A DNA stretch of 64,000 bases from Nocardioides baculatus (GTDB taxonomy: Bacteria > Actinomycetota > Actinomycetes > Propionibacteriales > Nocardioidaceae), in the NCBI RefSeq assembly GCF_016735675.1, contig NZ_JAERSG010000001.1, forward strand, positions 248,001 through 312,000, in the 5' to 3' direction. Positions 55,574 to 59,535 of this stretch are shown here, piece after piece. Made by a program: the position numbers and the translations under genes. The notes beneath the pieces were generated by a model, which was not told the origin of the DNA, searched no databases, and was given only the letters and a program-made list of their open reading frames with translations. The first letter of the stretch is position 1; every line of letters begins with the position of its first letter.

Positions 55574-57211
55574 ATGGCGAAGCCCGCCATCCTCGCGGTC
55601 GACGACGACGTCGCGGTGGTCGCAGCCGTGGTGCGCGACCTGCGGCAGCGATACGGGCAGGACTACCGCGTCCTGCGGGCGACGTCCGGTCCCGAGGCGC
55701 TGGAGATCCTCGCCGACCAGCTCCTCAAGGACCGCCCGATCGCGGCCGTCGTGAGCGACCAGCGGATGCCCGGGATGACCGGCATCGAGGTGCTCCAGCA
55801 GGTGCGCGAGCAGTCGCCCGACACCAAGCTCTGCCTGCTGACGGCGTACGCCGACACCGACGTCGCGATCCGCGCGATCAACGAGATCGGGCTCGACTAC
55901 TACCTGATGAAGCCGTGGGACCCGCCCGAGGACACCCTCTTCCCCGTGCTCGACGAGCTGCTCCGCGACTGGACGCACGGCCACCCCGACCGCGACTCCG
56001 AGGTGCGCGTCGTCGGCCACCGCTGGTCCGAGGCGACCCACGAGGTCAAGACGTTCCTCACCCACAACCACGTGCCCTTCCGCTGGCTCGAGGTCGACTC
56101 TTCCGACGAGGCCGCACGGCTGCTCGAGCTCGCCGGCGAGGGCGAGCTCCCGGTGGTCGCGCTGCCCGACGGCTCGGTCCTCCGCTCCCCCACCTCCACC
56201 GAGCTCGCCACCGCGCTCGGCCTCAACACCCAGGCGACCAAGCCGCTCTACGACCTCTGCGTCGTCGGCGCCGGGCCGGCCGGCCTCGCGGCCGCGGTGT
56301 ACGCCGCCTCCGAGGGGTTGCAGGTCGTCGTGGTGGAGCGCGACGCCCCGGGCGGCCAGGCCGGGCAGAGTGCGTCGATCGAGAACTACCTGGGCTTCCC
56401 CAAGGGCCTCTCCGGCGCCGACCTCACGCACCGCGCGGTCGCGCAGGCGTCACGGTTCGGCGCGGAGATGGTGCTGGCGCGCGATGTCGTCGGCTTCGAG
56501 ACCCGCGGGCCCGTACGCGCGGTGCTGCTCGACGGCTCGGCAGACATCGAGGCGCGCGCGGTCCTGGTGGCCAGCGGGGTGTCGTACCGCCGTCTCGACG
56601 CCCCCGGCCTCGACGACTTCGTCGGCCGCGGGATCTACTACGGCGCCAGCGCGAGCGAGGCGCCGCAGACCGTCGGGGAGGACGTGTACGTCGTCGGCGC
56701 GGCGAACTCGGCCGGGCAGGCCGTGCTCAACTTCGCCAAGTACGCCACGAAGGTCGTGCTCGTCGTGCGCGGCTCGTCGCTCGAGGCGTCGATGTCGCAG
56801 TACCTCGTCACCCGCATCCTCGACACCCCCAACGTCGAGGTACGGCTCCGGACCGAGATCGTCGGCACCCGCGGCGACGGCCACCTCGAGGGCGTCACCC
56901 TCTGTGCTGCGGGCGAGGTCGACGAGGTCGCCACCAGCTCGGTCTACATCTTCATCGGGGCCGCGCCACGGACCGACTGGCTCGGGGACGCCGTCTCCCG
57001 CGACGAGCGGGGCTTCGTGCTCACCGGGCCCGACCTGCCCGCTTCCGCCGCCTGGCCACTGGAGCGCGGTCCCTTCGCACTGGAGACCAGCGTGCCCGGC
57101 GTCTTCGCCGCGGGCGACGTACGCCGTGACTCGATGAAGCGCGTCGCCTCGGCCGTCGGCGAGGGCGCGATGTCGGTCTACCTGGTGCACCGCTACCTGG
57201 CGGCGACATGA
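55574..57211 (+). CDS. response regulator fused to thioredoxin-reductase-like flavoprotein
   Basis: 545 residues in three parts. 1-125 is a receiver: AVDDD acidic pair, phospho-Asp62 in AAVVSDQRMPGMTG, and YYLMKPWDPPE. About 135-215 is a thioredoxin/glutaredoxin-like fold without cysteines (EVKTFLTHNHVPFRWLEVD, then GELPVVALPDGSVLRSPTS). From 225 on is a TrxR-type FAD/NAD(P) oxidoreductase: VVGAGPAGLAAAVYAAS and VVGAANSAGQAVLNFAKY, and GVFAAGDVRR near the end. The redox CxxC of TrxR is replaced (GIYYGASASEA). Coupled by ATGA to the kinase. Redox output of a phospho-signal is inferred. Confidence 0.92.
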   Translation: MAKPAILAVDDDVAVVAAVVRDLRQRYGQDYRVLRATSGPEALEILADQLLKDRPIAAVVSDQRMPGMTGIEVLQQVREQSPDTKLCLLTAYADTDVAIRAINEIGLDYYLMKPWDPPEDTLFPVLDELLRDWTHGHPDRDSEVRVVGHRWSEATHEVKTFLTHNHVPFRWLEVDSSDEAARLLELAGEGELPVVALPDGSVLRSPTSTELATALGLNTQATKPLYDLCVVGAGPAGLAAAVYAASEGLQVVVVERDAPGGQAGQSASIENYLGFPKGLSGADLTHRAVAQASRFGAEMVLARDVVGFETRGPVRAVLLDGSADIEARAVLVASGVSYRRLDAPGLDDFVGRGIYYGASASEAPQTVGEDVYVVGAANSAGQAVLNFAKYATKVVLVVRGSSLEASMSQYLVTRILDTPNVEVRLRTEIVGTRGDGHLEGVTLCAAGEVDEVATSSVYIFIGAAPRTDWLGDAVSRDERGFVLTGPDLPASAAWPLERGPFALETSVPGVFAAGDVRRDSMKRVASAVGEGAMSVYLVHRYLAAT

Positions 57212-58599
57212 GTCTGGTCTCCGAGCTGCGCGCCATCTCGATCCTCGACGGCTTCACCGACGAGCAGGTGGCCGAGCTGGCCGCCGCCGGCGAGGAGGTG
57301 GCGTACGAGCCGGGCGACCGGATGTTCGACGAGGGTCGCCCCGCCGAGCACTGGTGGGTGATGCTCGAGGGCCGGATCGACGTCGTGCGCCGGGTCGGCA
57401 ACGAGGAGGTCGCGATGGTGACCATCCAGAACCCTGGCCAATGGGCCGGCGGCTTCCGCGCGTGGGACGAGCACGGCGTCTACATGGGGTCGGCGCGCGT
57501 GATGGACGCCAGCCGGGTCTTCCGACTGAGTGCCTCCGAGCTGGCGCGGTTCGGGCAGGAGTGGTTCCCGTTCGCGGTGCACCTGCTGTGCGGGCTGATC
57601 GTGACTGCCCGGCGCATCGAGCACAACGCCCGCGAGCGCGAGGCACTCGTGGCCCTCGGCACGCTCGCCGCCGGGCTCGCACACGAGATCAACAACCCCG
57701 CGTCGGCCGCGGTCCGCTCGGTCGGCGCGCTCCAGCAGTCGAGCGACGACGTCTTCGCCTCCCTCCAACGGCTAGCCGGGGCAGGGATCGACGCTGCGCA
57801 GTTCACCGCCCTCGACGAGCTGCGGCGCTCGATCGACGTCTCCGCCGCGCCTTCCGGTGTCGCACTGGCCGACCTCGAGGAGTCCCTCACGGACTGGCTC
57901 GAGGACAACACCATCGACCGGTCGTGGGCGATCGCTCCGGCCCTGGCTGCGGCGGGCGTGCAGTCGTCCCTGCTCGACCGGGCTGCTTCGTCCCTGTCGG
58001 GGCCGGCGCTCCAAGCGGGCCTTGAGTGGGTGGCCTCCGCCGTCACGACGACCGCCCTCATCAACGAGGCGCAGGACTCGACCCGCCGCATCTCGGACCT
58101 CGTCTCGGCCGTGAAGTCCTACTCCCAGATGGACCGCGCCGCCGTCCAGGAGATCCGCGTCGTCGACGGCCTCGAGAGCACCCTGATAATGCTCGGCCAC
58201 AAGCTCCGCGAGGGCGGCGTCACCGTCGTCCGCGAGTACGACGACGCCGTCCCGCCGATCACCGCCAACCCCGGCGAGCTCAACCAGGTCTGGACGAACC
58301 TCATCGACAACGCCGTCGACGCCATGGAGGGCGGCGGCACCCTGACGGTGCGGACGTACGCCGACGAGCGCCACGTCGTCGTCGAGATCTGCGACACCGG
58401 CCCCGGCATGACCGACGAGGTCGCCGCCCACGCCTTCGAGCCCTTCTTCACGACCAAGGAGGTCGGCAAGGGCACGGGCCTCGGCCTCGACATCTCCCGG
58501 CGGATCATCGTCGAGCGGCATGGGGGTGAGATAGGTGTGGAGTCGGTTCCGGGTGCGACGGTGGTGCGCGTGCGCCTGCCTCTGGGAGTTGAGCGTTAG
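57208..58599 (+). CDS. histidine kinase with cyclic-nucleotide-binding-like sensor domain
   Basis: 463 residues, no transmembrane helix. N-terminal cNMP/CRP-like sensor domain (about 10-130): VAYEPGDRMFDEGRPAEHWW, MLEGRIDVVRR, VMDASRVFRLSASEL. HisKA-type dimerisation with phospho-His: LAAGLAHEINNPASAAVRSV. HATPase: QVWTNLIDNAVDAMEGGGTL, ICDTGPGMTDEV, KGTGLGLDISRRII. It overlaps the response-regulator/flavoprotein gene by ATGA, so the two form a dedicated signalling pair. Confidence 0.93.
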   Translation: MSLVSELRAISILDGFTDEQVAELAAAGEEVAYEPGDRMFDEGRPAEHWWVMLEGRIDVVRRVGNEEVAMVTIQNPGQWAGGFRAWDEHGVYMGSARVMDASRVFRLSASELARFGQEWFPFAVHLLCGLIVTARRIEHNAREREALVALGTLAAGLAHEINNPASAAVRSVGALQQSSDDVFASLQRLAGAGIDAAQFTALDELRRSIDVSAAPSGVALADLEESLTDWLEDNTIDRSWAIAPALAAAGVQSSLLDRAASSLSGPALQAGLEWVASAVTTTALINEAQDSTRRISDLVSAVKSYSQMDRAAVQEIRVVDGLESTLIMLGHKLREGGVTVVREYDDAVPPITANPGELNQVWTNLIDNAVDAMEGGGTLTVRTYADERHVVVEICDTGPGMTDEVAAHAFEPFFTTKEVGKGTGLGLDISRRIIVERHGGEIGVESVPGATVVRVRLPLGVER

Positions 58600-58794
58600 G
58601 GCCTTCCGACGACTGTCGGGGGCTTGACGCACCGGGGGTTCCTTCTCTGAGCGCTTGGAGGCGCATGCTCAGTGATCTGCTCCTACCTATGGGAGCGAGG
58701 TTGGCGCGGCCGATGCGATTTTCGGATTCGGCATCGGCACGGGTTGGGGACGTTTAGCCTCTCGGGGATCATGAACCAGAGGGAGTCCCCGAGA

Positions 58795-59535
58795 ATGACC
58801 CACGTCTTTCGCGTCGTCATCACCGCCGTTGCCAGCCTCGCGCTGCTGATGGGCGCAGTGGTTGGACTTAGCGCCGTAGGCGCATCGGCTGCCACCGATA
58901 TGGACTGCACCGATTTCTCCACGCAGGCCTCGGCACAGTCGTTCTTCCTGGCCGCCGGTGGTCCGTACTCGGACCCCCACTTTCTTGACTCCGATGGTGA
59001 CGGGGTTGCTTGCGAGAGCAACCCCTGCCCTTGCTCCTACGGCACGACGCCGACGACGCCCGCGACGACGCCGACACCCACTCCGACACCCACTCAGACA
59101 CCGACTCCGATCCCAACGCCGACGCCGACGCCGACTCCCCCAGCCGAGGTGATCCACGTAGTGAGGGTCATCAACGGCCAGTTGATCAAGGTGCGCGAGG
59201 GCGCGAATTCTCCCGAAGTCGTGCACCTTCTCGGGGTCACCGTTCCGAAGCGATCTTGCGAGGCCAGGGCGGCCAAGAGGGATCTACGCTCGTGGGTGAA
59301 GCCGGGCATGGTCGTGATATCCCACATCGACGAGAAGGCACCCGACCGCGACGCGCAGGGCAACCTCTACCGCGCCCTGGAGCGCCAGAAGGGTGGATGG
59401 GACATCGGAGGTAGCCAGATCGACACCGGTTTCGCCAACGTCGATCGCAGCGTGCGCTTCAGCTTCAAGAACACCTATCTGCGGTGGGAGCGCAAGGCGA
59501 TCGCCCGGTCCAAGGGCTACCACGGCACTTGCTGA
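58795..59535 (+). CDS. secreted excalibur-domain protein with degenerate nuclease-like C-terminus
   Basis: 246 residues. Signal peptide (VFRVVITAVASLALLMGAVV) then an excalibur calcium-binding unit: DMDCTDFSTQASAQSFFLAA, then DPHFLDSDGDGVACE. A TP-repeat linker (TPTPTPTPTQTPTPIPTP) joins it to a domain resembling staphylococcal nuclease: VVRVINGQLIKVREGA, VVHLLGVTVP, QGNLYRALERQKGGWD, then GFANVDRS. The catalytic arginine and glutamate positions seem lost (VHLLGVTVPK), so nuclease activity is doubtful. Base composition and codon choice are less GC-rich than its neighbours, hinting at horizontal origin. ATG 58771 is an alternative start. Confidence 0.8.
   Translation: MTHVFRVVITAVASLALLMGAVVGLSAVGASAATDMDCTDFSTQASAQSFFLAAGGPYSDPHFLDSDGDGVACESNPCPCSYGTTPTTPATTPTPTPTPTQTPTPIPTPTPTPTPPAEVIHVVRVINGQLIKVREGANSPEVVHLLGVTVPKRSCEARAAKRDLRSWVKPGMVVISHIDEKAPDRDAQGNLYRALERQKGGWDIGGSQIDTGFANVDRSVRFSFKNTYLRWERKAIARSKGYHGTC

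Follow-up and report, generated by a model that had tools for sequence, protein, structure and literature searches.

Response regulators that join a receiver domain (REC) to a thioredoxin reductase-like (TrxR) output have been published and called "Mycobacterium-like" (PMC5847659, PMC9953108), and one regulator of the TrxB class was counted among thermophilic cyanobacteria (PMC9953108). The regulator analysed here, which the first-pass annotation had put forward as a possible new redox output, is therefore not new in kind. The portions of the two reports considered here make no mention of a missing CxxC, of a glutaredoxin (Grx)-like middle domain or of partner genes. A literature search found no biochemistry on any member of the REC-TR family (TR, the TrxR-like module), and publications on zf-UBP together with TrxR, a kinase or a regulator yielded nothing on the REC-TR system; regulator and kinase thus form a system that is known in outline and biochemically uncharacterised. 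In AhpF and NTRC, a thioredoxin (Trx)-fold domain and a TrxR module share one chain, and both parts have working dithiols. The regulator described below has the same two parts but, unlike AhpF and NTRC, has lost both dithiols and gained a receiver. In 2011 Burroughs, Iyer and Aravind (Mol BioSyst 7:2261) reportedly predicted that the ZF-UBP domains of bacteria belong to a new kind of redox signalling that depends on cyclic nucleotides, in which zf-UBP was linked to proteins of cyclic-nucleotide type and to redox proteins. The genome that harbours our locus has CNB (CRP-like), TrxR-like and zf-UBP domains as well; however, its operon differs from the 2011 system in containing no zf-UBP gene and in a CNB domain that lacks the usual cNMP signature.

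The window is a stretch of 64,000 nucleotides from Nocardioides baculatus (contig NZ_JAERSG010000001.1, positions 248,001 to 312,000), and all window positions given below refer to its + strand. It encodes a REC, Grx-like and TrxR-like response regulator of 545 aa, stop included (55574..57211), followed downstream by a CNB-type histidine kinase of 463 aa (57208..58599). The two reading frames overlap in an ATGA, and both their coordinates and the overlap agree with the first-pass annotation. Pfam matches in the regulator comprise Response_reg at residues 6-118 (4.8e-18) and Pyr_redox_2 at residues 226-531 (9e-34). The only cysteines of the chain are C87, C229 and C444; a CxxC elsewhere in the regulator, which had been named in advance as grounds for giving up the proposed reading, was looked for and none was found. 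Just 3′ of the pair, 58672-59535 (+) encodes a secreted protein that, judged by eye, resembles an Excalibur calcium-binding motif linked to a nuclease-like domain.

The TrxR-like FAD/NAD(P) module spans residues 224-543 (56243..57202). Its presence in the same chain as a receiver is borne out by the Pyr_redox_2 match and by the fold of the predicted structure, and the FAD/NAD(P) fold is shared with low-Mr TrxR (TrxB; Z 35 to TrxR structures). In contrast to TrxB, the regulator has no CxxC, no HRRxxxR and no active-site CDGFF, and carries R for Q at position 523. At the TrxR CxxC site (56642..56653) it has GASA (357-360), then E362, so that it reads Y356-G357-A358-S359-A360 where the genome's own TrxR has WCATCD. 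The replacement by GASA noted at the outset therefore stands, and the question of whether the loss is family-wide can be answered as well: among 148 relatives drawn from a number of phyla, not one carries a Cys at 356-361. This set consists of 119 REC-fused proteins and 29 classed as not REC-fused, the latter including a few truncated or pseudo-receiver forms. The former CxxC site is now a conserved stretch of small residues plus E362. A conserved substitute cysteine near the site was considered and rejected: position 366 is often a Cys (in 77 of the 119 REC-fused proteins and 26 of the 29 others), but the window regulator has Thr there.

The motif HRRxxxR, which contacts the NADPH phosphate in TrxR, is replaced by the nearly invariant family motif R399-G-S-S-L..M407-S-x-Y-L411 (56768..56806); the window regulator reads VRGSSLEAS there and retains R399 alone. 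The FAD-binding motifs are kept. VGAGPAG (231-237) has the GxGxxG pattern with invariant glycines, VGAANSA (374-380) can be counted as a degenerate form of the second, dinucleotide-binding motif GxGxxA/G with G375, N378 and A380 invariant, and GDVRRDSMKR (57113..57142) forms the C-terminal FAD motif. R523 is invariant in 148/148 relatives, whereas the genome's own TrxR has Gln there; Y356, G381-Q382, M407-S408-x-Y410-L411, R517 and R523 are all invariant or nearly so across the TR family, and the genome's own TrxR differs at most of these positions. In comparison with the two closest of the relatives tested, the TR module has a dN/dS of 0.14-0.18, below that of the receiver and Grx-like parts. 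Taken together with the family-wide invariant residues, these values rule out a decaying enzyme. A loss of cysteines confined to this locus, or the decay of a single copy, is likewise ruled out by the same dN/dS values and by the lack of a Cys at the CxxC site in all 148 relatives.

A predicted structure of the regulator matched the TrxR structure 5mh4 (FR form) with a Z score of 35.5 and an rmsd of 1.7 over 300 residues, compared with an rmsd of 7.9 to the FO-form TrxR 5mjk. This suggests an FR (flavin-reducing) conformation for the model, which is a single prediction without a control model. The top Foldseek match was AhpF, and ferredoxin-NADP reductases (FNRs) built on the TrxR fold (8c16, 8c3m) were also among the fold matches. 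Such FNRs likewise have no CxxC. Their appearance, together with the intact FAD and dinucleotide motifs, the invariant family-specific residues and the conserved small residues and E362 at the former CxxC position, speaks for a phospho-regulated NAD(P)H oxidoreductase that would take electrons from NAD(P)H and hand them on by way of FAD to an acceptor other than a thiol, be it a quinone, ferredoxin/flavodoxin, O2 or a small electrophile. However, HRRxxxR is lost, and the recurrent neighbours of the family are the kinase and zf-UBP, with no ferredoxin or quinone-enzyme gene standing out among the conserved neighbours, so that we regard such an enzyme as a tentative alternative. The loss of HRRxxxR could also mean weak or no use of NADPH, and a TR without any NAD(P)H use has been documented (PMC5627308).

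Between the receiver and the TR module lies a Grx/mycoredoxin-like domain without cysteine (residues 143-216; 56000..56221). The domain had been annotated as thioredoxin-like and cysteine-free, in agreement with its predicted beta-alpha-beta-alpha-beta-beta-alpha fold of the Trx/Grx type and with the absence of any Cys from segment 139-222. Its affinity can be specified further: a family profile of the middle domain matches the M. tuberculosis mycoredoxin Rv3198.1 (2lqo) with an E value of 5e-8, which makes mycoredoxin-1 the best sequence match of this part of the window regulator, and the Pfam Glutaredoxin model gives a weak match in 10 of 14 family members. Where mycoredoxin has WCGYC, the regulator family has WSxxS/T and hence no dithiol chemistry; in the window regulator the active-site WCxxC has become W151-S-E-A-T155. 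The middle domain is therefore a Grx/mycoredoxin relative that has lost its own CxxC, a point absent from the first-pass annotation, and on the evidence of the sequences both dithiol sites, the Grx-like WCxxC and the TrxR CxxC, are gone. Although the overall fold and the FAD site are TrxR-like, it is highly improbable that the regulator is an ordinary thioredoxin or mycoredoxin reductase which borrows cysteines from another chain, given that no Cys occupies the FAD-facing site in 148 relatives, that both cysteines of the Grx-like domain are missing and that the genome encodes a separate TrxR with CATC. In the bacillithiol disulfide reductase YpdA/Bdr the catalytic Cys is part of the FAD motif (GGGPCG). 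The regulator reads GAGPAG at this site, without a Cys, and scores 54 with the NCBIfam YpdA model against a cut-off of 340, and identity with YpdA/Bdr was rejected.

In contrast to the two thiol sites, the phosphorylation site of the regulator is intact. The receiver (residues 5-118; 55586..55927) has conserved D10, D11, T90 and K113 and the phospho-acceptor Asp62 (55757-55759), and this quintet, the full residue set of a response regulator, is invariant in 39 aligned relatives, as expected from the initial assignment of Asp62. In a first genome scan, 76 of 82 loci had a member of the CNB-type kinase cluster near REC-TR, with very few exceptions on the same strand. Long read-through frames and, in cyanobacteria, intervening genes bring down the number of strictly adjacent pairs; nevertheless, the kinase adjoins the regulator in most relatives, so that the same pair does occur in other genomes; the first-pass annotation had proposed to look for it in other actinobacteria. 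In Bacteroidota the kinase lies upstream of the regulator, and orphan REC-TR copies without a kinase nearby exist, mostly in cyanobacteria. One clade, comprising loci L105-L112 and a second copy in the window's genome (L002), has no adjacent kinase, and in most but not all of these proteins the phospho-site is gone. Since both losses are confined to one clade, they count as one event. Signalling from the kinase to Asp62 would fit both the adjacency in most relatives and the mostly degenerate receivers of the kinase-less clade. In several cyanobacteria and in Meiothermus a single REC-TR is accompanied by a tandem of two CNB-type kinases (L048, L049, L050, L051, L052, L082), and in several cyanobacteria gene pairs resembling toxin-antitoxin modules (Phd/PIN-like, by eye) lie between regulator and kinase (L045, L051, L052, L082).

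The kinase itself has the residues expected of a histidine kinase, with H159, N364/N368, D396, F413 and G422/G424/G426 conserved among its homologues. The phospho-acceptor His159 (57682..57684) lies in LAAGLAHEINNP and is invariant in 40 homologues, and the catalytic ATPase domain covers residues 314-460 (58147..58587; Pfam HATPase_c at 355-459). Model and alignment indicate an all-helical insert of residues 196-262 (57793..57993) in the DHp hairpin, where it separates the phospho-His helix from the second helix. W240 and W274, in and just after the insert, are nearly invariant in 40 homologues. At the N-terminus, residues 5-118 (57220..57561; Pfam cNMP_binding at 31-115) form a CNB sensor domain. 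The CRP-like fold assigned in the first-pass annotation is thus upheld, with the correction that the signature of Glu and Arg which usually contacts the cNMP is absent: in place of the typical phosphate cassette (GE...RTA type) the window kinase reads WAGGFRAWDEHGVYMGSARV, while RTA is retained in a few of its distant relatives. Because this cassette is missing, binding of cAMP by the window kinase in the usual way appears unlikely. The profile of the kinase CNB matches the CNB fused to TR no better than it matches the CRP-like regulator of the genome.

Relatives of the regulator number in the hundreds, and of 149 sampled genomes of Actinomycetota, 29 contain the TR family. Some members are plasmid-borne, in Paraburkholderia, Rhodococcus, Deinococcus, Nostoc and others (e.g. 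NZ_LR134454.1, NZ_AP024327.1), with 83 plasmid records matching the family, 12 of them spanning most of the query. In Pseudomonadota and some other groups, the Grx-like-TR module shares a single chain with a CNB domain, a form that the first-pass annotation did not include. As the CNB domain is fused in cis in some taxa and resides on the kinase in trans in others, the sensor fold would be wired to the flavin module by two routes, directly or via a phosphorelay. There is a weak indication that the REC-fused forms are rooted inside the CNB-fused ones, in a tree whose outgroup branches are very long. The fusion to CNB sensors, the joint loss of both thiol sites and the lack of a DNA-binding or other classical output in the regulator are also compatible with a redox-inert sensor, in which binding of FAD and NAD(P)H would do no more than report the ratio of NAD(P)H to NAD(P)+ and, by way of the receiver, act back on the kinase, so that the supposed output domain would in truth be another sensor. 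Such a sensor seems rather unlikely to us, however, as the very strong conservation of the flavin module, with R523 in 148/148 relatives, suggests chemistry or a specific redox tuning.

A further component that the first-pass annotation had not considered is zf-UBP (PF02148). Although uncommon overall, the domain shows a strong association with the TR family. It is encoded in 21 of 29 TR-positive as opposed to 10 of 120 other genomes of Actinomycetota (p 5e-12), in 8 of 16 as opposed to 2 of 102 genomes of Bacteroidota (p 7e-7) and in 5 of 18 as opposed to 0 of 182 genomes of Pseudomonadota (p 3e-6), all three comparisons ignoring ancestry and genome size. Moreover, zf-UBP lies within about 1.6 kb of TR in 8, 7 and 5 genomes of these phyla, respectively, and such physical linkage is harder to explain by shared ancestry or genome size than co-occurrence. 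The gene order is TR, kinase, zf-UBP at L169, L171 and L172; in Bacteroidota zf-UBP lies upstream at a kinase-sized distance, and in Pseudomonadota it adjoins the CNB-TR form. Kinase and zf-UBP even form single chains in one actinobacterium and one cyanobacterium (L170, L064). Judged by gene content and order, zf-UBP is, with the kinase, a recurrent third partner of the TR family. It is not adjacent to the window pair, and the zf-UBP genes of this genome are located elsewhere. One of them encodes a free-standing zf-UBP protein of 133 aa (L177:6283-6684, -), which is a possible candidate for a partner of the window pair in trans. Another zf-UBP domain of the same genome forms the C-terminus of a Na+/H+ exchanger (L178:3780-5642, -) whose gene adjoins the TR paralogue with the degenerate receiver, and similar-looking exchanger-zf-UBP chains are found in other actinobacteria (L174-L176).

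Regulator and kinase probably constitute a redox signalling system. The CNB domain of the kinase would sense a small molecule or a redox cue, conventional recognition of cAMP being improbable, and the kinase would then phosphorylate Asp62 of the regulator. Phosphorylation may alter how the NAD(P)H-FAD module moves about its hinge (FR/FO) or how it assembles. The flavin could still accept hydride from NAD(P)H, but thioredoxin would not be reducible in the usual way: since the regulator has no dithiols, electrons should not reach thioredoxin by that path, which leaves contact with a partner, most likely a zf-UBP protein, or transfer to a non-thiol acceptor as the putative output. Such a phospho-gated, thiol-free NAD(P)H-flavin module, signalling by protein contact or through a non-thiol acceptor, is the reading we favour, at slightly better than an even chance. 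The fusion of CNB to the module in cis, the linkage to the kinase, the co-occurrence with zf-UBP and the conserved flavin module all point in its direction. A more specific version, in which a phosphorylation-gated flavin switch senses NAD(P)H and, through a change of shape, signals to zf-UBP docking proteins including the Na+/H+ exchanger, is a long shot; if true, it would couple the redox state of the cell to ion transport without thiol chemistry.

In routine annotation, a protein with the TrxR fold is called a disulfide reductase or simply an "FAD-dependent oxidoreductase". The TR family is a large, multi-phylum family for which the usual disulfide chemistry is impossible and which is nevertheless under tight constraint and coupled to two-component signalling. 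It offers a clean and testable case of phosphorylation directly controlling a flavoprotein. Moreover, while the eukaryotic counterparts of zf-UBP serve the ubiquitin system, the TR family may provide a function for the zf-UBP domains of bacteria.
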